DNA of 59,239 nucleotides, from NCBI GenBank assembly GCA_019113175.1, contig DXHY01000010.1, positions 1-59,239 on the forward strand. The letters run 5' to 3'. This DNA is from Candidatus Eisenbergiella stercoravium (GTDB lineage Bacteria > Bacillota > Clostridia > Lachnospirales > Lachnospiraceae). The translations under genes were made by a program, and so were the position numbers. Below are positions 3,931 through 12,093 of the stretch, piece after piece. The first letter of the stretch is position 1. Each line of letters begins with the position of its first letter. The notes beneath the pieces were generated by a model, which saw nothing but the letters and a program-made list of their open reading frames with translations, was not told where the DNA came from and made no database searches.

Positions 3931-4563
3931 CTATTCTGCCTTCGGAGCGTCAATATCCGGCAGCTCCGGACTGCTCACTACCCGGTAGCCTCCACCGGGC
4001 TCCTTTTCCACATGGAACACAAGCGGATTTGTTTTTCCCCATTCCGGGTCCTTTGCCGTCCTCTCCTCCCATCTGTGGTATTTTTCCACAAATGCATCGT
4101 GGATCTCGCTTTCCGCTTCCCTGCGCACCTGAATCGCTTCTTCCATGCTCGTGTAGGTTCCCAGATAAAAACGGTCTCCTTTAAAGCCGATGGTCACGCG
4201 GTATCGTCCGTTTTTCATCCGGTATACGCCACGGAAGCCGCTGGTGTTGTCCTTCCGGCTCTTTCTTTTCTCCAGCCATTCCACACAGGTTCCGTCGATC
4301 CGGTGGAGCTGTTCCGATACCTTCTGCTGGTTTTCCCGCTTCAGGCAGCCGCAGCTTAAATTGTTTCCGAATACCAGGCCGTCCTCCGTAGCCTCGGCTT
4401 CCCCGCCGCAGTCACAGCGGCAGTGCCAGTAGACCGAGCCCTTGTGGTCTCTGCGGGTGGTAGGGTATTCCGCAGTCAGGCGGCCGAAACGTCTTCCCGT
4501 CAGATCGGCTGCAGTTCTGCCGCCTCCTCTTTTCTTCTTTCTGATTCCTTCGTTCTTCTCCAT
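3931..4563 (-). CDS. AP2/ERF-type DNA-binding protein with N-terminal zinc-ribbon-like segment
   Basis: The 210-residue protein has an AP2-like domain at about 107-150: SGFRGVYRMKNGRYRVTI, GFKGDRFYLGTYTSMEEAI. The YRG-type core and the GTY/A-A strand-helix pattern are recognisable. An N-terminal segment (about 22-78) has LTGRRFGRLTAEY followed by WHCRCDCGG and LSCGCLKRE, a Cys-rich arrangement common in phage and HNH-associated proteins. No HNH catalytic motif is visible, so it looks like a stand-alone DNA-binding protein rather than a homing nuclease. The ATG at 4563 has AAAGGA at good spacing. It lies 116 bp downstream of the base pilin gene on the same strand, so it may be read from the pilus transcript. 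A regulatory role is an inference. Confidence 0.65.
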   Translation of the reverse strand: MEKNEGIRKKKRGGGRTAADLTGRRFGRLTAEYPTTRRDHKGSVYWHCRCDCGGEAEATEDGLVFGNNLSCGCLKRENQQKVSEQLHRIDGTCVEWLEKRKSRKDNTSGFRGVYRMKNGRYRVTIGFKGDRFYLGTYTSMEEAIQVRREAESEIHDAFVEKYHRWEERTAKDPEWGKTNPLVFHVEKEPGGGYRVVSSPELPDIDAPKAE

Positions 4564-4679: not shown

Positions 4680-5459
4680 TCAGCCTTCCTTCAGACCGTT
4701 CTCATGCTTTTTCCGGCAGACCATCACCACGATCACCAGCGCACCAAGAACTGCAGTGGTCAGCCATAACGTGATGTCCGCGCTGTCTCCGGTCTGAGGA
4801 CCGCTGCCTGTCTGAGATGCCGTCTGAGATGATGTCCCGGGATCTGACGGAGTCTGTGCGGGCGGAGTCTGTGCAGGCGGAATCACCGCTGCAGGTACAA
4901 CGGCCGGGTCATCTTCCGTATCTCCACCGTCATTTCCGCCATCATCCGGATTCGCGGGATCCGCAGGTTTATTGTAGCGGTTTACAAAGACGATCTCCGT
5001 TTTGTCCTCTTCCCCGTTCTTTCTTGCCGTTACCAGGGATGTCAGTCCACCGTCGTCTGTATTGGTCACAGATACCGTAACCGTATACACCGTCTCATCA
5101 TAAGTAAAATGTGCCTTTGTCTCCGCCTCCTGCCAGACCTCATACCGGTAGACGCCGGGATGGGAGTAGATGATGGGACCGATCTCCGCTTTTCCTGCAT
5201 CCGTGATCCGCACGTTGTCTACAACCACAGGATTACCTTCTTCCTCCTGTCCCATCGGCATTGGCGCGCCGTCCAGCGCACGGATCTTTACAGTATATTC
5301 ATTTCCTCCGGGAATATCGCTGCCCTCCTGCCTGACCTCTACCGGTACTGACGCCGTACATTGATATTCTGCGGCGCTTGCCTGCACAGGAAGCAAAAGT
5401 CCTATGCTCACCAGCGTAAGCAGCAGCATTTTTCCCATCTTCATCAGCTTCTTTCGCAT
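4680..5459 (-). CDS. minor (base) pilin, FctB-like, sortase substrate
   Basis: The 259-residue surface protein starts with a signal peptide (MRKKLMKMGKMLLLTLVSIGL..., cleavage near QASAA). One pilin-type beta domain (about 30-165) of the Spy0128/FctA kind follows: VPVEVRQEGSDIPGG..., YRYEVWQE, FTYDETVYTVTVSV, EIVFVNRY. A Pro/Ala/Asp/Thr-rich wall-spanning tail comes next (PPAQTPPAQTPSDP), then GPQTGD as the likely sorting motif, a transmembrane helix and CRKKHENGLKEG. The proline-rich tail is typical of pili base subunits such as FctB. The ATG at 5459 has a strong AGGAAGGAGG. It is the last gene of the pilus operon, 63 bp after the sortase. Its role as base subunit is inferred from order and architecture. 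Confidence 0.75.
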   Translation of the reverse strand: MRKKLMKMGKMLLLTLVSIGLLLPVQASAAEYQCTASVPVEVRQEGSDIPGGNEYTVKIRALDGAPMPMGQEEEGNPVVVDNVRITDAGKAEIGPIIYSHPGVYRYEVWQEAETKAHFTYDETVYTVTVSVTNTDDGGLTSLVTARKNGEEDKTEIVFVNRYNKPADPANPDDGGNDGGDTEDDPAVVPAAVIPPAQTPPAQTPSDPGTSSQTASQTGSGPQTGDSADITLWLTTAVLGALVIVVMVCRKKHENGLKEG

Positions 5460-5522
5460 TGTTATACACCTCCTTCCTGTGCCTGCCGAACCGCCGCCGG
5501 CATACACAGCCTTCTCTGCATC

Positions 5523-6299
5523 TCAGTTCTGAAGCGAATAGGGTTTCATCACCGCCAGAAGGATGGTTCGCGCGTCCGTATACTCCGAAGAGCATGTGGA
5601 CATTGCAAGGATCTGGAAACAATCCTCCGAGGTTCCAATCTTCTCCATCGTATCCTGATGGATGTGTTCCGCCTCTTCCCGAACAAAATCCAGAAGCCCT
5701 CCGGTGTCCGCCGCCCACTGCTGCGGAGAAAAAATGGCGTCCTCCGAGGCCGGCACCCGCAGAAATGCAAAGATTTCCAGTCCATAAGCCCGATCGGGCA
5801 GAATCAGCATGCCCGTCGTATTCTCATCAAAAAATGTCTGATCCTCATACAGATCAAGATCTCCGAACATCTTGCTGTTGTCCATATGGTGGCCATACAG
5901 CAGGGAATAATTTTCATGAAAGGTATTATCACATCGGGAATCCAGAAAAATACTTCCGGCAAGCGCAAAATTTCCATATACGTCCGTATTTATATAGGAA
6001 AGATTATCTTCACCCTGCAGGACAGGGTAATCGATCTCCGTATTGTCCAGCGTAAGCCATGCGCATACATCGGAATTAATGGCAAGCAGTTCCTCAAAGG
6101 ACGCGCCTTCCTCCTCTGCCGCATCCACTTTCGGTTTCAGCGCCAGCAGTTCGGACTGCACGTTGTCCACTGCAGCGTACACCTGCGCGTTATCCCACAG
6201 GGCATAAGCGGAATAGAGTCCCGCTATTGCCAGAAACAGGATCACAGCTGCACTCACGAGGGAATCAGCCGCCCTTAAAAACATCTTTGAAGCATTCAT
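5523..6299 (-). CDS. class B sortase (pilin polymerase type)
   Basis: The 258-residue membrane-anchored cysteine transpeptidase has an N-terminal transmembrane helix (about 15-33). The class B sortase fold includes WLTLDNTEIDYPVLQ, catalytic His137 in YGHHM, Cys236 in MSTC and Arg244 eight residues later in the TDAR stretch. Class B enzymes normally anchor iron proteins. In Streptococcus pyogenes FCT-3/4 loci a class B enzyme (SrtC2) polymerises the pilin FctA. The position between the major and base pilin genes argues for that job here. GGAGGGAGG precedes the ATG. A perfect hairpin separates it from the upstream major pilin gene. Confidence 0.9.
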   Translation of the reverse strand: MNASKMFLRAADSLVSAAVILFLAIAGLYSAYALWDNAQVYAAVDNVQSELLALKPKVDAAEEEGASFEELLAINSDVCAWLTLDNTEIDYPVLQGEDNLSYINTDVYGNFALAGSIFLDSRCDNTFHENYSLLYGHHMDNSKMFGDLDLYEDQTFFDENTTGMLILPDRAYGLEIFAFLRVPASEDAIFSPQQWAADTGGLLDFVREEAEHIHQDTMEKIGTSEDCFQILAMSTCSSEYTDARTILLAVMKPYSLQN

Positions 6300-6411: not shown

Positions 6412-7401
6412 TTAGTCCTCAACTCTGCGTCTTCTTACGATCATGACAACGGCCGCGATCATCACAAGGCCGAATACCAGAATGTAGGGAAGAGTGTCGA
6501 GGGTAATGCCGGTGTCTACTTCACCGGTTTTGGAGTTCGTGAAAGATGCAGTCTGAGATACTGCATTGATGGTGCCGGTATCGCCATCTGGCGTAGTTGT
6601 GTAGCCATTCGTATTCGCTTCCGCTTCAGTAACCGCATAGCTTACATTGTAAGGCAGATTGGCAATGCTGATAGTTTCGCCATCTTTGAGGTAAAACGTA
6701 GCAGGGGTGCCGATAGTAATAGTCTGAGGGTTACTTTGATTACTGCCACCCGTAACGGCGTAAGACTCAGCATAAGTCTTTCCCTCTTCTCCGGTCAGAG
6801 TAACAGTAAATGTAAAATATTTGTCATGGTCGCCCATGTTGCCTTCAACTGTCTTGGACACGTTCAGGGTTCCTGCGGAATATGTGTTCGTAAATGTGTC
6901 AGATTTTTTTTCGCCCTCTGTTTCTGTATGCACACCTGCAACACGGATTTTTCCGTCTGCCCCCTGCATAACTGTTACCACCAGCCTGATTGTATTTCCA
7001 TAATAGGTAACACCGGCAGTTGTACCCGCAACTTCCTGAAGGGTATATTCATATACGCCTACCCGATCATATGCAGGAAGCGTTATTGTAATATTCTTTA
7101 CTGTTCCGTCCGTTGATGCATCTCCTGCCTCAAAAGCAGCGCCCGTAATCGTACCAAGGGCAGGTGCAGAAGCAGCATCACCGTCTGTCACTTTACCATC
7201 ACCGACCTGCACCAGCGTAAACGTTTCCGCCGGAGAGGTTGTGTCAGCATTTGCAGCCACATATTCCTTTTTGATAGTAACCGTAGTCTGATCTGTATAA
7301 GTAGTTTCTCCAGTTCCTCCGGTTGCAAACGCCGTAACGCCCATGCTGAGCGTAGTAACTGCGGCAAGTAGCAAGGCCAATACTTTTTTTCTTACCTTCA
7401 T
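6412..7401 (-). CDS. major pilin, FctA/Spy0128-like
   Basis: The protein of about 329 residues has a signal peptide (MKVRKKVLALLLAAVTTLSMGVTAFA), then two beta domains. The first (about 35-175) is FctA/Spy0128-like, with TFTLVQVGDGK, ITITLPAYDRVGVYEYTLQEV and IRLVVTV. The second (about 178-290) is a pilin or adhesin repeat beginning LNVSKTVEGNMGDHDKYFTFTVTL and ending ASFTNSKTG. The sorting region EVDTGITLDTLPYILVF, hydrophobic helix and RRRR tail follow. The DTGI-x-LD-x-x-PY pattern resembles the sorting region of streptococcal FctA and is shared with the tip protein of this locus. AGGAGGAATCAGAAAC precedes the ATG at 7401. As the best-isolated pilin directly upstream of the sortase it is the probable shaft subunit. 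Isopeptide-bond residues were not assigned. Confidence 0.85.
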   Translation of the reverse strand: MKVRKKVLALLLAAVTTLSMGVTAFATGGTGETTYTDQTTVTIKKEYVAANADTTSPAETFTLVQVGDGKVTDGDAASAPALGTITGAAFEAGDASTDGTVKNITITLPAYDRVGVYEYTLQEVAGTTAGVTYYGNTIRLVVTVMQGADGKIRVAGVHTETEGEKKSDTFTNTYSAGTLNVSKTVEGNMGDHDKYFTFTVTLTGEEGKTYAESYAVTGGSNQSNPQTITIGTPATFYLKDGETISIANLPYNVSYAVTEAEANTNGYTTTPDGDTGTINAVSQTASFTNSKTGEVDTGITLDTLPYILVFGLVMIAAVVMIVRRRRVED

Positions 7402-7473
7402 GTTTCTGATTCCTCCTAAAAAATTTTTATTCCTATAAGCGTCCGAAGGCGGCTTATACATGTTAGTCAGGAG

Positions 7474-8019
7474 CTACAGCTCCCTTCTGCGGAGAATGGT
7501 GATCACCTTCGCTTTCACATCCTCCATTACAACACAGCCGAAATCCCGGCTGTCTTCAGCCTGTGTCCGGTAGTCTCCCAGTATGAACACAGTACCTTCC
7601 GGAACGGTGTAAGGGTATTCCAGCCTCTCCTTCGCATAGGTGGGGAAAAGGATCTCCCCGCCCTGAGCGGTGCCGTTGACCAGAAGCGTCCCGCTGTCAT
7701 CCAGCGTAATCACATCCGTCTCCCGGCCGATAATCCGGCCCACACACAGCCTCCCGTTCCTTTCATAAACCACAACATCATCCTTCTGATAATCCCTCTG
7801 CAATCGGAAGCCGATGAGAAGATCTCCGTCCTTTACCGCCGGAAACATATCATTGCCGGAAGCCTGGGCAATCAGAAAAACCTGTGTAAAAAGCAGCCAT
7901 CCGATCAGTGCCAAAACAATGATGCGTATAAGCAGGCTGATGTACCCGTTCCTGATCTCCGCGGCATTTCTCCGGCTTCGAATCACCTGTGAAGCACTCT
8001 GCACGATATCATCCCGCAT
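7474..8019 (-). CDS. signal peptidase I-like pilus assembly protein (SipA-type, catalytic dyad lost)
   Basis: The 181-residue type I signal peptidase homologue has one N-terminal membrane helix (about 27-52). The peptidase boxes are present but mutated. The usual G-x-S-M-x-P box reads GNDMFP, so the catalytic Ser is Asp57. The usual K-R-V-I-G box reads VGRIIG, so the catalytic Lys is Gly94. The later box GDYRTQAEDSRDFG is well kept. From memory, streptococcal SipA/LepA, a pilus polymerisation factor, carries the same Ser-to-Asp and Lys-to-Gly changes. It lies between the tip/small-protein genes and the major pilin, the same place as sipA in FCT loci. It is therefore likely a chaperone-like assembly factor and not a peptidase. 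Confidence 0.85.
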   Translation of the reverse strand: MRDDIVQSASQVIRSRRNAAEIRNGYISLLIRIIVLALIGWLLFTQVFLIAQASGNDMFPAVKDGDLLIGFRLQRDYQKDDVVVYERNGRLCVGRIIGRETDVITLDDSGTLLVNGTAQGGEILFPTYAKERLEYPYTVPEGTVFILGDYRTQAEDSRDFGCVVMEDVKAKVITILRRREL

Positions 8020-8023
8020 CGCC

Positions 8024-8422
8024 TCACTCCTCTCCGCCCGGCATTAAGCCACTGTCTGCCGTCCGGCCATTCTGCCCTGAATCATCCGATATTTCCGGCT
8101 CTTCTTCATATGTAAAAGTCCCGGCATCAACAGCCATCGTCTGCTCCTCCAGCAGAGCGTCATAACGCGCCCGTTCCGCGACAAGGGCAGATTCGTAAAG
8201 CCTGTCCAGCTCCTCCAGCTTTTTCCAGAGCTGCACCTCGTCCACTCCTCCGAAAAGGACTTTTCGGAATTTTACCGTATCCAGCCATTGGATCAGCTTC
8301 TCATGCTCCCGATTTACCGGTTCCGTATCAAAATTTCTTTTCGGGGCATTTTCATGTTGTAAACGTTTTGCTTTCCTGTCACGTTTCCGCTTTTTTGCCC
8401 CATTCATGCGCCTGCCTGTCAT
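8024..8422 (-). CDS. conserved hypothetical protein of the pilus operon
   Basis: The 132-residue protein has a very basic N terminus (about 1-30, KKRKRDRKAKRL) and a central helical, probably coiled-coil segment (about 42-95). That segment contains VKFRKVLFGGVDEVQLWKKLEELDRLYESAL and ERARYDALLEE. The tail is acidic. There is no signal peptide or membrane segment, so it should be cytoplasmic. The FGGVDE...LWKKLEELxxLYE motif looks like a conserved clostridial family, but I know no function. It lies 14 bp after the tip adhesin and 4 bp before sipA, so it is surely co-transcribed. It may also be a membrane-associated or nucleoid-associated helper. Function unknown. Confidence 0.7.
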   Translation of the reverse strand: MTGRRMNGAKKRKRDRKAKRLQHENAPKRNFDTEPVNREHEKLIQWLDTVKFRKVLFGGVDEVQLWKKLEELDRLYESALVAERARYDALLEEQTMAVDAGTFTYEEEPEISDDSGQNGRTADSGLMPGGEE

Positions 8423-8436
8423 TGCTGTCTGTCCTT

Positions 8437-10482
8437 TCAGCTGAAATGTCTTTTCCTCCTGCCGATGATGAAGGCAGCCGCGCAGCCTGTAATCAGGATC
8501 AAAGCCAGAGCATGCGGGGTGGAGTCCAGAAGGATGCCGGTATCCGGTGTAACTTCCTTATCGTTGATCACCGTGATTTCTTCATTATTTTTGTCAATTG
8601 TTATTTTCAAAGTCTTTATATTGCTGCTTTTATCCTCGCGAGCATCTATTGTTACATTTCCATAGGTTGCCGAAACGCTATACCCTCCGGCATTCTCTTC
8701 TATTAAGGTAAGTTCAGCCCCAACCGGGATACCGGAAATTTTCTCACTTCCTCCATCCCTCAGGTTAAATGAACCTTCTTGCAGACTTCCTGAGGCATCC
8801 ATATAGCTGTAAGAAAAAGTGAAGTCTTTCTGAATGTCACCCAGCCCGCCTGTCACATCTTTCGTTACCGTAATGGTCTGTGCCGAGGGAACATAACGTG
8901 CATAATAGGTTGTGTTCTTTGTAATTGTCTCCGTCTCCCAGTCGACTCTCTCTGTACATGCCTCATCTTTATACCAGCCATCGAATGTATATGTTATTCC
9001 ATTCACTATTTTTTCTGACGGGTAAGTGGTCGAATCCGCTACGTCAGGACGAGAAAGGAGATCCGCCTCAAATCCTTCATCGACACGCCTGCTGTATTTT
9101 TCCGGCTCCACAATGCTGAACGCCGTTTCTCCTGCGTCCTTCAGCGCAAAATTTACCGTATACTTGTTTTTTTCATTCAATATCAGCACGCCGTCCAGAT
9201 GATAGGTATTCGTCCCTGACGCAACCGTTTCATTGTGCCCATTATTTCCCGCATTCGCTCCGTTTGCAACAATAACGCGCATCCAGCTGATTGTATAATA
9301 GCCTTCCTGACTTTCCTGTTCTTCTGTCCGCGCATACTGATAAGTTACACCATCGACAGTAATATTCGGATATTGTCCTTCATTGTACTCAATATCAGCT
9401 CCGCTGCTTCCATATCCATTATCTACAATTCTATCCACTGAAAGCGAAGCCGGGGAACTCACTCCGGAAATGCTTCCAACTCCCATTCCATTCCAGACAA
9501 GATCCGGATTTTCGCTGGATCCTTCTTCCACTCCGGGAATCAGGGTATACATGTACAGATTGTATGTTGCTTCTCCGGCAGCCGTTACTGTGACATCATA
9601 ACTTTCACTCTGTTGCCGTCCTCCAAAATAACTTCTATTATATTTGTGTGTAATTCTAACAGTTCCTTCCGCCACTCCGGTCACTGTAACCGATCTTTCA
9701 TTCGTATTATCGAAACCGACTGCACCGCCATCATTACTCTCCCAGCTCCAGCTGTGGTTCCATCCATTCGAACCGGTCAGCACAATGCTGCTGCCAACTT
9801 GTACTTCTATAGGTCCACGGATTGCCAGCAAAGCGATTCCATTACTTGCAATTCCATTCCCAGAAACACTGTTTCCGGAAACACTTCCCTCAGAAGCGCT
9901 CTCCTCGGGAACATCATTTCCAGAAACCGGCTGACTGTCCTCATCTGTCCCTGTTTCAGTTTCTGTTTCCGTCTCTACCGGCATCTCCTCTTCTCCATCC
10001 GTTTCCGGCGTAGAAGAGACTTCTGACGAAGATTCTTCCGTAGAAGATGCTTCCGTAGAAGATGCTTCCGTAGAAGATGCTTCAGTAGAGGACTCTTCTG
10101 TGGAAGGTTCTTCGGAAGAGGACACTTCAGAAGAAGGTTCCTCCTCCGAAGGGACCGTAGAAGGCGTCGTCGGGTTGGAAGGATCTTTCGAATCTGTCCC
10201 GTTCTCATCTTTCTCCGTATCGATGCCAGCTGTTCCACCTTCCGGTTCACTGGGAGACTCCACACTATCCTCTGAGGTATTCTGTGAGTTCTCCATGCTT
10301 TCGTCCGTGGAAGGCATACTACTCTGCGTCGAAGGCGTTTCCTGCGTCTTCGCCGTTTCCAATGTTTCTGCCATTTCTGTGGACTGTTGCGCGGATACTA
10401 TCACCCGGCCGCTTCCAGCCATGGAAAATATCAGCGCAAATGCGAGCAAAAACGCCGCCGCTTTTTTCACATTTCTCCGCAT
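8437..10482 (-). CDS. large LPxTG-type pilus tip/surface adhesin with Ser/Thr/Glu-rich stalk
   Basis: The surface protein of about 681 residues has a signal peptide (about 1-33). A low-complexity S/T/E/P stalk follows (about 35-215), with EASST repeats and SVSGN repeats. Next come an Ig-like domain (about 220-310, VQVGSSIVLTG...GTVRITHKY), an unassigned adhesin region, and an InlB/Listeria-Bacteroides-type repeat near 500 (YTFDGWYKDEACTERVDW). A pilin-like domain (about 540-650, ITVTKDVTGGLGDIQKDFTF) and the sorting signal TPDTGILLDSTP with hydrophobic helix and GRRKRHF tail complete it. I prefer the ATG at 10482 (GGAGAAAGGAAAA upstream) over 10497. As first gene of the operon it takes the place of the tip protein Cpa in FCT loci. 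Its expression should depend on the invertible promoter. Confidence 0.8.
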   Translation of the reverse strand: MRRNVKKAAAFLLAFALIFSMAGSGRVIVSAQQSTEMAETLETAKTQETPSTQSSMPSTDESMENSQNTSEDSVESPSEPEGGTAGIDTEKDENGTDSKDPSNPTTPSTVPSEEEPSSEVSSSEEPSTEESSTEASSTEASSTEASSTEESSSEVSSTPETDGEEEMPVETETETETGTDEDSQPVSGNDVPEESASEGSVSGNSVSGNGIASNGIALLAIRGPIEVQVGSSIVLTGSNGWNHSWSWESNDGGAVGFDNTNERSVTVTGVAEGTVRITHKYNRSYFGGRQQSESYDVTVTAAGEATYNLYMYTLIPGVEEGSSENPDLVWNGMGVGSISGVSSPASLSVDRIVDNGYGSSGADIEYNEGQYPNITVDGVTYQYARTEEQESQEGYYTISWMRVIVANGANAGNNGHNETVASGTNTYHLDGVLILNEKNKYTVNFALKDAGETAFSIVEPEKYSRRVDEGFEADLLSRPDVADSTTYPSEKIVNGITYTFDGWYKDEACTERVDWETETITKNTTYYARYVPSAQTITVTKDVTGGLGDIQKDFTFSYSYMDASGSLQEGSFNLRDGGSEKISGIPVGAELTLIEENAGGYSVSATYGNVTIDAREDKSSNIKTLKITIDKNNEEITVINDKEVTPDTGILLDSTPHALALILITGCAAAFIIGRRKRHFS

Positions 10483-10599
10483 TTTTCCTTTCTCCATTCT
10501 TTTCTTAAAATAATATGGTTACTTTCTTCATCCTGCCCTTCCGGGCGGTTTCCTTCTAAAATGTCTGCCTCCTTTCTCCCGCCCCAGTCCGAACAAAGA

Positions 10600-10622
10600 G
10601 CAGAGGGGCCTGTCCCTCTTCA
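10600..10622 (-). promoter_or_regulatory. small stem-loop in the pilus operon leader
   Basis: AGAGGG pairs with CCCTCT around a short loop and is followed on the minus strand by GCTCTTTG. It lies about 130 bp upstream of the adhesin start, between the left inverted repeat and the gene. It may modestly attenuate readthrough. The rest of 10483-10645 shows no promoter of its own. Confidence 0.3.
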
Positions 10623-10645
10623 ACTATCTGCACACCTCCATACCT

Positions 10646-10665
10646 CATAATGTTTATTATGCGGT
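10646..10665 (+). repeat. left inverted repeat (IRL) of the invertible segment
   Basis: Exact complement of the right repeat at 10988-11007. Its outer flank reads ACCT instead of ACCG in the arm and has no T-tract. A transcript leaving the segment to the left would therefore form a hairpin here but not terminate. Confidence 0.85.
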
Positions 10666-10763
10666 TCTTATCCACGCTGGAAGCCGCCGCAAAGAGGGCT
10701 TCGGGCTTTCGGAGCCTTCAGCAGCAGCCCCAAAAGCCCGAAGCAGGAATATTTGGACATAAC

Positions 10764-10798
10764 AAAAAAGACCATTGAGGTATATTGCCTCTATGGTC
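10764..10798 (-). terminator. intrinsic terminator inside the invertible segment, facing the pilus operon
   Basis: On the minus strand GACCATAGAGG pairs with CCTCAATGGTC (one mismatch) and is followed by TTTTTTG. In the present orientation it would stop readthrough from the recombinase side into the pilus operon. After inversion it would point the other way. Confidence 0.8.
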
Positions 10799-10924
10799 CC
10801 GTTTGCATGCGCTGATTTTCCTGTCCCCTTCTCTTATCTTTTAGTCTCTGGATTGATTTTCGTTTTTCCGTATTGATTTCATCATTTTCTAACGATTTGA
10901 CGCTGATTTCCTTCCGAAAGGAGA

Positions 10925-10953
10925 TTGACATCCCCCGATATTACGGGTATAAT
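10925..10953 (+). promoter_or_regulatory. perfect consensus promoter within the invertible segment
   Basis: TTGACA (10925-10930), 17-bp spacer, TATAAT (10948-10953). It reads rightward, antisense to the recombinase gene, in this assembly. I found no comparable promoter reading left inside the segment or between it and the adhesin gene. Confidence 0.85.
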
Positions 10954-10987
10954 TGGTTTTAAGTTCAGCGATATGTACTTACCGGTT

Positions 10988-11019
10988 ACCGCATAATAAA
11001 CATTATGCGGTCTTTTTTT
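10988..11019 (+). terminator. right inverted repeat (IRR) doubling as terminator
   Basis: The recombination site 10988-11007, extended by CGGT, forms a 10-bp perfect stem (ACCGCATAAT/ATTATGCGGT). It is followed immediately by CTTTTTTTC. A transcript from the inward-lying promoter would stop here in the OFF state. The same bases encode the last codons and the TAA stop of the recombinase on the opposite strand. Confidence 0.75.
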
Positions 11020-11875
11020 CGTCCGCCACGTCAATCCAGAGAAGGCCCAGGCGCTCGATCTGCTCCGCCTGCTTCCTGCCGCTCCACATCGTATAGATTC
11101 TCGTCGTGTTAATGCTTGAATGGCCGAGCAGATCCGCCAGATGCGTGATATCTTTCTCCATCTCGTAATACGTGCATGCAAACAGATGTCTCAGGTTATG
11201 AGGGAAGATCCGGCTCTTTTCCACTCCCGCCTCTCCACTCAGGCTCTTCATCTCATGCAGGACGTTACTTCGGTCCATCGGCCGGCCGCTTCTGGTCACA
11301 AAGATGCTTCCTGTGAAAATCCCCCTCTGCATGGCATAGTCAAGAAGACTTGCACACAGTGCGGCAGGAAGAAGCACCGTCCGCGTCTTTCCCTTCAGCC
11401 GTACCACCGCACTCCCCCGTTTTGCTGCCTCCACCGTGATGAATGGCAGCTCGCTGATCCGGATTCCGGTAGCACAGAGCGTCTGCATCAGATAGCTCAA
11501 TCTCTTCTTTCCCCGCTTCTCGGCCGCTTCCACCAGACGGAAGTATTCCTCTCTGGAAAGCTCCTTCTCCTGCCTGCGGAAGCTCTCCCGCTGTACCCGC
11601 ACCAGCTTTACCACACAATCATACCATCCCTGTTCCTTGAAAAAACGGTTCAGCGCGGCGAGCATGGAGTTCACGCTGCTGACCGCATAGCGATTCATAA
11701 GATTTTCCTTATAGCGTATCACGGTCGCCTTATCCACCCTGTCCGACTCTCCAAGGTATCGGCGGAAAGCACGAAGATCCCGGCTGTACTTTTCTATCGT
11801 CCTCCCGCTTTTTTCCTCCTCTTCAAGCCTGCGCTGGAACTGCTTCAGCTGCATCTCGCCCATAAAATGCTCCAT
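11003..11875 (-). CDS. tyrosine recombinase/integrase (putative invertase of the pilus switch)
   Basis: The protein of about 290 residues has an N-terminal SAM-like core-binding domain (about 15-95, RTIEKYSRDLRAFRRYLGE) and a C-terminal catalytic domain. All active-site residues are visible: Arg in ATGIRISEL, Lys in RLKGKTRTV, His-x-x-Arg in HNLRHLFA, His in LLGHSSINTT and Tyr in RIYT. The ATG at 11875 has AAAAGAGGT upstream. The open frame runs on another 51 codons only because 90-bp repeats there lack stops. Its stop codon lies inside the right inverted repeat, so inversion leaves the gene intact. Location and size resemble dedicated inversion recombinases such as RecV or XerC/D-like ones. 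It is the likely switch enzyme. Confidence 0.88.
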   Translation of the reverse strand: MEHFMGEMQLKQFQRRLEEEEKSGRTIEKYSRDLRAFRRYLGESDRVDKATVIRYKENLMNRYAVSSVNSMLAALNRFFKEQGWYDCVVKLVRVQRESFRRQEKELSREEYFRLVEAAEKRGKKRLSYLMQTLCATGIRISELPFITVEAAKRGSAVVRLKGKTRTVLLPAALCASLLDYAMQRGIFTGSIFVTRSGRPMDRSNVLHEMKSLSGEAGVEKSRIFPHNLRHLFACTYYEMEKDITHLADLLGHSSINTTRIYTMWSGRKQAEQIERLGLLWIDVADEKKTA

Positions 11876-11880
11876 ATCTA

Positions 11881-12093
11881 CCTCTTTTCCCTGCCGCTTC
11901 AGCGGCATTATAATCTGAGGAATTGGCCGCAAGGACAATTCCCAGGATGAAATCCTTTGGATTTCATCCGCCTCTTTTCTCCGTCGCTTCAGCGGCATTA
12001 TAATCTGAGGAATTGGCCGTAAGGACAATTCCCAGGATGAAATCCTTTGGATTTCATCCGCCTCTTTTCCTTTGCCGCTTCGGCGGCAATTTT
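11881..12093. repeat. 90-bp tandem multi-hairpin repeats upstream of the recombinase gene
   Basis: Two nearly identical 90-bp units (11881-11970, 11971-12060) and a partial third. Each unit holds three stems: GCTTCAGC-type GC stem, GGAATTG...CAATTCC, and GGATGAAAT...ATTTCATCC. The same three-stem plan recurs upstream of purA and thyA with changed loops. The remainder up to 12324 is the MFS gene leader. Confidence 0.8.

Follow-up and report, generated by a model that had tools for sequence, protein, structure and literature searches.

Invertible Switches of Surface Genes

The kind of switch described here is already known from fimS of E. coli, cmr of C. difficile, SZO08560 of S. zooepidemicus and the invertons of gut bacteria. 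As described, fimS is an invertible promoter of 314 bp, similar in length to the segment analyzed below, which depends on tyrosine recombinase, controls pili and shows phase-dependent termination 3' of a recombinase gene. The E. coli system serves chaperone-usher fimbriae and has two recombinases and short repeats, whereas the locus studied here combines one adjacent recombinase with long dyad sites and a sortase pilus.

In C. difficile, the tyrosine recombinase RecV serves cwpV, flg and cmr (PMC9286219; PMC2784873), and the cmr and pdcB segments contain promoters (PMC9286219). Like cmr, pdcB, flg and cwpV, the present locus belongs to Clostridia, and a predicted invertible segment precedes its operon as theirs precedes a gene or operon; its predicted terminator resembles the site-linked one of cwpV (PMC2784873). 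In the available text of these reports, however, RecV is common to several switches and a sortase pilus does not figure among them, whereas the recombinase considered here is adjacent and has its stop codon within a crossover site.

The invertible promoter of S. zooepidemicus SZO08560, for which five reverse-orientation reads were reported (Holden, 2009; PMC2654543), likewise comes from a Gram-positive organism and joins a neighboring recombinase gene to short inverted repeats around the promoter of a surface protein. By its published description, SZO08560 is a surface protein of the LPXTG class that carries Listeria-Bacteroides repeats (PF09479), and the same family was matched in the adhesin of our locus. 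The likeness is one of description, and by the same account the segment measures 116 bp, has the repeat GTAGACTTTA and serves a single surface protein, not a pilus operon (PMC2654543).

Among gut invertons, group 139 together with invertase group 35 comprises 33 invertons, 32 of them from Clostridia (Jin, 2025; PMC11892184). Nearly all members of group 139 lie near a tyrosine recombinase of one group, and reads show that their orientation changes (PMC11892184). Compared by description, the group 139 inverted-repeat pair of Clostridium sp. D5 resembles ours in size and spacing (26 bp, with starts 231 apart); the words pilus, pili and sortase have no match in the main text of that paper (PMC11892184). 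Inversions have also been recorded in Clostridia genomes (PMC5903667), and bifidobacterial sortase pili are described as having a different, slippage-based switch (PMC9187656); the available text of PMC13121745 and PMC11868660 holds nothing on pili switches of the present kind. Among the literature matches listed, none describes a sortase pilus of Lachnospiraceae or Eisenbergiella under an invertible switch, a weak negative that covers titles and the starts of abstracts. The original prediction had called the arrangement unfamiliar; it now appears less isolated, given a sizeable family of such switches in Lachnospiraceae and the similar surface-protein loci already published (PMC2654543; PMC11892184), and what stands is that the sortase-pilus case was not found among those literature matches.

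Crossover Sites and Recombinase

The window (the whole stretch of DNA analyzed, 59,239 nucleotides from Candidatus Eisenbergiella stercoravium, contig DXHY01000010.1) contains what we consider, with a probability of roughly 0.88, to be a site-specific DNA inversion switch of a pilus operon, now in the OFF state. Perfect 20-bp inverted repeats at 10646–10665 and 10988–11007 have 322 bp between them, correct to the base as originally predicted; by simple arithmetic with uniform bases, a like pair no more than 1 kb apart would arise by chance somewhere in the window with a probability of about 5e-5. The repeats lengthen to 24-nt arms with one mismatch, and each proves to be a dyad of the form ACCGCATAAT-NNNN-ATTATGCGGT, the left one having the outer half ACCTCATAAT. 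A repeat search thus delimits an operon-side crossover site, ACCTCATAAT-GTTT-ATTATGCGGT, at 10642–10665, and a recombinase-side site, ACCGCATAAT-AAAC-ATTATGCGGT, at 10988–11011. The sole mismatch lies in the outer half of the operon-side site and recurs in the relative L016 (L, G and C numbers denote loci, genomes and contigs of our survey). The predicted 4-bp centers are asymmetric (GTTT/AAAC), and the matching cores surround a promoter, as in a tyrosine-recombinase invertible-promoter switch. The invertible segment itself, delimited by the repeats and by comparison with relatives, spans 10666–10987 (322 bp). In a form comparable with the inverted-repeat motifs of other invertons, the crossover-site motif reads ACCNCATAATNNNNATTATGNGGT. 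At up to two mismatches, the site occurs in the whole genome at this locus only; there is no second place with the 322-bp segment in the genome, and the degenerate site gave no match against viral contigs. An Rfam match at 10699–10743 scored below the gathering threshold and was set aside as chance.

The gene next to the recombinase-side site (11003–11875, minus strand) encodes a XerC/D-like tyrosine recombinase, assigned by Pfam, structure alignment and NCBIfam and presumed to be the invertase. Its product is full-length (Phage_integrase, E 8e-25), with the XerC-like 4a8e and XerA 5hxy as closest solved structures. The catalytic set of tyrosine recombinases consists of R, K, H-x-x-R, H and Y, and all of these, judged by eye, align with the XerA and XerC-like structures; the enzyme is complete, and it scores under the curated cut-offs for XerC, XerD and XerA. 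The predicted abutment of gene and right repeat is closer still, the stop codon (11003–11005) lying within the crossover site. The adjacent recombinase is presumably the cognate enzyme of the two sites. Upstream of its gene, a hairpin-rich unit of about 90 bp stands in tandem at 11890–12069 and is a dispersed repeat; the stretch 11880–12075 has 19 matches in the genome, itself counted.

The Pilus Operon and Its Transcription

On the other side of the segment lie six genes, all on the minus strand and thus codirectional with the recombinase. They encode an adhesin or ancillary pilus protein with DUF7601 and a Listeria-Bacteroides repeat (8437–10497; Pfam/NCBIfam), a small protein without family match that has homologs in other pilus operons (8024–8422), a SipA-like signal peptidase I (7474–8019; TIGR02227 above cut-off), a backbone pilin with an FctA domain and DUF7601 (6412–7461; TIGR03786 above cut-off), a class B sortase (5523–6299; TIGR03064 above cut-off) and a minor pilin with an FctA domain (4680–5507; Pfam/NCBIfam). 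The FCT-type layout is defined by an ancillary protein, a SipA-like signal peptidase, an isopeptide FctA backbone, a class B sortase and a minor pilin, and one operon here holds an ancillary protein, a SipA-like signal peptidase, an FctA backbone, a class B sortase and a minor pilin. Homologs of the small protein sit between adhesin and signal peptidase in many FCT-like pilus operons. Just past the operon, a protein at 3931–4563 lacks Pfam and NCBIfam matches and is 84% identical to proteins behind the L016 and L019 pilus operons.

Within the segment, a promoter TTGACA-N17-TATAAT at 10925–10953 (plus strand) matches the consensus at 12 of 12 positions and faces the recombinase, its -10 element ending 34 nt from the site it faces; the perfect, outward-pointing promoter of the original prediction is thereby borne out. 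It scores 16.1 in a matrix scan, and a score of 16 or more is reached at only three places in the whole window, this one included (two on the plus strand, one on the minus strand). No leftward promoter in 10498–11010 exceeds 5.4, in agreement with the earlier failure to find any other promoter for the six pilus genes, and the region upstream of the recombinase showed no strong promoter, the best score there being 7.7.

Two predicted terminators accompany this promoter. Folding suggests that the recombinase-side crossover site forms a hairpin which, with the TTTTTTT that follows it, makes an intrinsic terminator for the OFF transcript (10988–11019, plus strand; -12.1 kcal/mol), whereas the operon-side site folds at -7.0 kcal/mol and lacks a T-run. 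A second hairpin with a T6 tract lies inside the segment (10764–10798, minus strand; z -5.0, -15.5 kcal/mol), points toward the pilus operon in the OFF state and is predicted to block read-through from the recombinase gene. The switch is separated from the adhesin gene by an untranslated leader (10498–10641, minus strand), to which the leader of L078 is 81.5% identical over 108 columns. An attenuator in this leader was considered and rejected: its fold in the window is no better than that of shuffles (z 0.12), and the hairpin is absent from the L078 fold.

Together, these features suggest how the switch would work. Strand exchange by the adjacent recombinase would take place in the matching 4-bp cores of both dyad sites and flip the 322-bp segment. 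As the segment now lies, the only strong promoter runs toward the 3' end of the recombinase gene, and its transcript would stop at once at the terminator formed by the crossover site and the T7 tract just outside the segment, while the hairpin inside the segment would halt read-through from the recombinase gene. Because the sole strong promoter faces away and terminators are predicted on both accounts, the pilus operon is read as OFF. Once the segment is inverted, transcription from the promoter would pass the operon-side site, where no T-run stands, and continue along the leader into all six pilus genes. That the window copy itself flips, through the adjacent recombinase and with pilus expression following, we infer from sequence.

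The hairpin inside the segment could also be read differently, as in cwpV: the operon would be fed by read-through from a recombinase promoter, and inversion would move the leftward terminator in or out of its path. The hairpin with T6 does point leftward as the segment now lies, recombinase and pilus operon are codirectional here and at the other switch-bearing pilus loci, and cwpV itself works in this manner (PMC2784873, as far as its available text describes). However, a switch of the cwpV type has its promoter outside the inverting segment and none within, whereas the strongest promoter here is a perfect one inside it, whose spacing from the site is conserved among relatives. Moreover, the best candidate upstream of the recombinase scores the 7.7 given above, and the direction of terminators varies across the family, as described below. 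We therefore regard this explanation as improbable and retain that of an invertible promoter.

Matching Cores Across the Recombinase Family

In a sample of 397 genomes of the taxonomic family, homologs of the recombinase, counted at E <= 1e-75, amount to at least 88 genes in at least 52 genomes, with up to six candidates scored per genome. A first search found a dyad pair at 64 of 110 recombinase matches (63 unique), partial matches ending before residue 240 having been left out. In a second, core-blind test, pairs were picked by their arms alone with masked bases excluded; it covered 93 recombinases, those whose 3' flank reached 400 nt or more (omitting 16 of the 110 with less, and one duplicate) and found a pair behind 60, with none found for the other 33. 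The cores were inverse-complementary in 60 of 60 pairs, none being direct or mismatched, although some loci are close paralogs and the 60 are thus not independent cases. The count was also 60 in a version that included one masked NNNN pair. Among the 60 pairs, 38 distinct cores occur, one of them palindromic. Cores that match within loci yet vary among them reflect a need of strand exchange and would not be expected from mere sequence conservation. Three loci (L170, L172 and L199) had pairs in the first search but not in the core-blind test; L172, whose pair lies far from the gene, was kept out of the inversion evidence even though its segment aligns with others on the minus strand.

These pairs also bear on a non-regulatory reading, in which the sites would serve the attachment of an integrative element or Xer-type resolution. 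The enzyme does belong to the XerC/XerD/XerA-like superfamily, yet it falls below all three specific cut-offs, and the window segment holds a promoter and no recognizable gene. Above all, none of the 60 pairs is direct and all are inverted, by which this reading is largely refuted; we give it hardly any credence, and an inversion switch remains the favored account.

One genome, G160, has at least six close recombinases (L147, L155, L159, L163, L164 and L167) and 34 crossover-site copies at up to two mismatches, and is a candidate many-switch genome; behind two of its switches lie a signal peptidase and a protein of about 2,800–2,900 aa.

The first genes behind switches were assigned at 55 of 62 loci (omitted were L011, L091, L143, one of two at L146, L157, L166 and L169). 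By Pfam, among the 25 of 41 families listed, they comprise eight DUF7601 pilus-type proteins, five signal peptidases, three CpsB/CapC capsule proteins, three helix-turn-helix proteins, two with a SpaA fold and two FliE, each further family listed having one or two members. Surface-type genes are thus frequent behind these switches, alongside many first genes of other kinds or without a family.

Both Promoter Orientations Occur in Relatives

Orientation was called in the 63 unique segments from promoters that score at least 10 and lie 24–60 nt from the site faced. Such a score is reached in 55 segments, 51 of them with the promoter in that range, and in the other eight no promoter of score 10 was found. 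The calls are 44 OFF (facing the recombinase) against seven ON (facing the operon), whereas 40 sets of dinucleotide shuffles gave means of 1.5 OFF and 1.3 ON in the same range, with maxima of 4 and 4. In the four segments with a promoter outside the range, three are OFF and one ON. Both facings therefore occur among relatives, with mirrored promoter-to-site spacing, while the window genome has a single orientation; that all relatives are OFF is ruled out by the ON segments.

A TACATA motif offers a second view of orientation, being promoter-proximal in 28 of the 51 switches and distal in six. The window, too, has it at the promoter-proximal segment end (10972–10977). Among the seven ON calls, the motif agrees in L140, L197 and L204, lies on the opposite side in L018, L096 and L097, and is on neither side in L175. 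By this comparison, only L140, L197 and L204 appear to be clear ON calls, and L018, L096, L097 and L175 are doubtful. At L140, the ON promoter is TTGAAA-17-TATAAT with a TG, 44 nt from the operon-side site.

The most direct evidence for inversion in the family comes from L187 and L204, a pair of paralogous switches that share a single contig of G319. Their segments align on opposite strands at 80% identity over 173 nt (E 2e-37), whereas their flanks are collinear, with 80% identity on the recombinase side and 79% on the operon side. L175 likewise matches L173 and L176 on opposite strands over a shorter length (about 77% across some 120 nt, the site included), with collinear flanks. The matching cores in 60 of 60 pairs, the two facings, the L187/L204 pair and the ON state of L140 all support the original proposal of an invertible promoter caught OFF.

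A T-run stands just outside the site on the recombinase side in 43 of 63 segments and on the operon side in about 11–12. Terminators inside the segment show no such bias: among the 44 OFF segments, 25 have an inward one toward the operon and 22 toward the recombinase, and at L140 the segment hairpin faces the operon despite the ON promoter. A directional double lock as a family-wide rule was set aside in view of these inward terminators facing both ways.

Contig ends offer a further view of orientation. Within 500 bp 3' of the gene, 14 of 88 recombinase contigs end, compared with two of 88 within 500 bp 5' (one-sided binomial p 0.002; 11 versus 2 of 52 genomes), and about 1.5 ends would be expected from the sizes of the contigs. 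Such an excess 3' of the recombinase would follow from assemblies broken by reads in both orientations. By eye, G147:C92 ends exactly at a dyad end, G270:C14 has two copies of the site within its final 77 bases and G093:C27 stops inside site-like sequence; the site pattern was recognized in three of the 14 ends, with about three more by eye, and four of the 14 come from one genome, G041, none of these showing a site. The excess fits mixed orientations in the reads, to which other repeats may contribute.

Pilus-Linked Cassettes and Their Possible Mosaic Descent

Closely similar cassettes occur in the genus at L016, at L019, at L011 (another label for the place of L078) and at L085 (on the contig of L017 and cut by its end). 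All four have the same site and a promoter with 11 or 12 consensus matches that faces the recombinase; the -10 element lies 33–34 nt from the site in the window, L016, L019 and L011. A T-run beyond the recombinase-side site, and hence a predicted terminator, is present in the window and all four relatives, and none follows the operon-side site in the four loci with both sites (window, L016, L019 and L011). The operon-facing hairpin with T-run recurs in the segments, at -15.5 kcal/mol in the window, -16.3 in L016, -11.8 in L019 and -10.5 in L011. Each of the pilus-linked cassettes of the genus (window, L016, L019, L011/L078 and L085) is OFF. Among remoter genus members, L080 and L083 are OFF, the best promoter of L079 faces the operon from 233 nt away, L084 has one site only, and L081 and L082 are recombinases without a found pair; G009 has three recombinases of the cassette type.

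The uniform OFF state of the genus cassettes raises the alternative of a locked remnant, in which a once-inverting segment is now fixed OFF and the recombinase acts on other sites or on nothing. The absence of an alternative segment copy from the genome and the confinement of the site, at up to two mismatches, to this one locus are in its favor. Yet relatives preserve the sites, the promoter, the T-tract and a recombinase with its catalytic residues even as the remainder of the segment diverges, and the family shows both orientations. A locked remnant is thus very unlikely, and an operating switch in its OFF state is the reading we carry forward.

Several related arrangements fall outside the pilus loci. 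At L084 (G003:C161), a second recombinase of 85% identity keeps the recombinase-side site and similar sequence on the promoter side; no second site was found on the contig, and different DNA lies beyond. At L079, L080, L178 and L180, a switch of the family stands ahead of long codirectional gene runs without match to the window pilus proteins, and the L079 and L080 segments are 88% identical over 58 nt.

Sortase homologs occur in 18 of 397 family genomes (E <= 1e-50) and in four of 13 genus genomes (E <= 1e-30); one of the 18, G213, whose contig starts 193 bases before the gene, was left out of the locus comparison. A recombinase and switch lie upstream of an FCT-like operon at nine loci (window, L016, L019, L078, L087, L212, L140, L139 and L219), of which eight are OFF and L140, a distant pilus homolog (sortase about 40%, signal peptidase 35%), is ON; at L139 and L219, repeats and promoters were identified by eye where the script reported no pair. 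Among 16 stretches around sortase homologs, L223 and L232 are cut by contig ends, L231 showed a sortase match only, L219 is the recombinase-bearing locus just named, and 12 are switch-less operons. In the fetched stretches of these 12 FCT-like operons (L217, L218, L220, L221, L222 and L224–L230), there is no recombinase match, nor is a dyad pair found within 900 nt of the adhesin, a weak negative from a script that missed the L139 and L219 pairs. The switch-less L217 is nevertheless 80% identical to the window in sortase and 75% in signal peptidase. Such similar operons without a recombinase indicate that pilus and adjacent recombinase are separable.

The closest relative of the window changes at the operon-side crossover site. 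On the operon side, the leader matches that of L078 (81.5% over 108 columns, z 34) far better than those of L016 and L019 (z 2.6 and 1.5), as does the start of the adhesin (87% over 78, z 36, against 63–64%, z 12 and 17.5). Within the segment, the window aligns with L016 (71.5% over 302, z 44) and L019 (73.1% over 268, z 33) but not with L078 (z 0.7), and recombinase gene identity to the window is 82% for L016, 75% for L019 and 67% for L078. The simplest reading of these alignments would be a cassette exchange at the operon-side site, by the recombinase or by homologous recombination. Since operon and leader match L078, segment and recombinase match L016 and L019, and similar operons exist without a switch, we tentatively suggest that recombinase and segment may form a transplantable phase-variation cassette of Lachnospiraceae, swapped among surface operons at the crossover site and mostly OFF, with the site doubling as OFF terminator; we hold this to be plausible, at somewhat less than even odds.

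Implications

Sortase pili are major adhesins of Gram-positive gut bacteria. The dyad arms and matching core right after a recombinase gene provide a sequence rule by which switches and their state can be found in ordinary sequence data, and the cassette mosaic offers a way into how operons gain and lose phase variation. With a sizeable family of adjacent-recombinase switches in Lachnospiraceae that mostly stand OFF as sequenced, the surface variation of these bacteria would be greater than their assembled genomes show.
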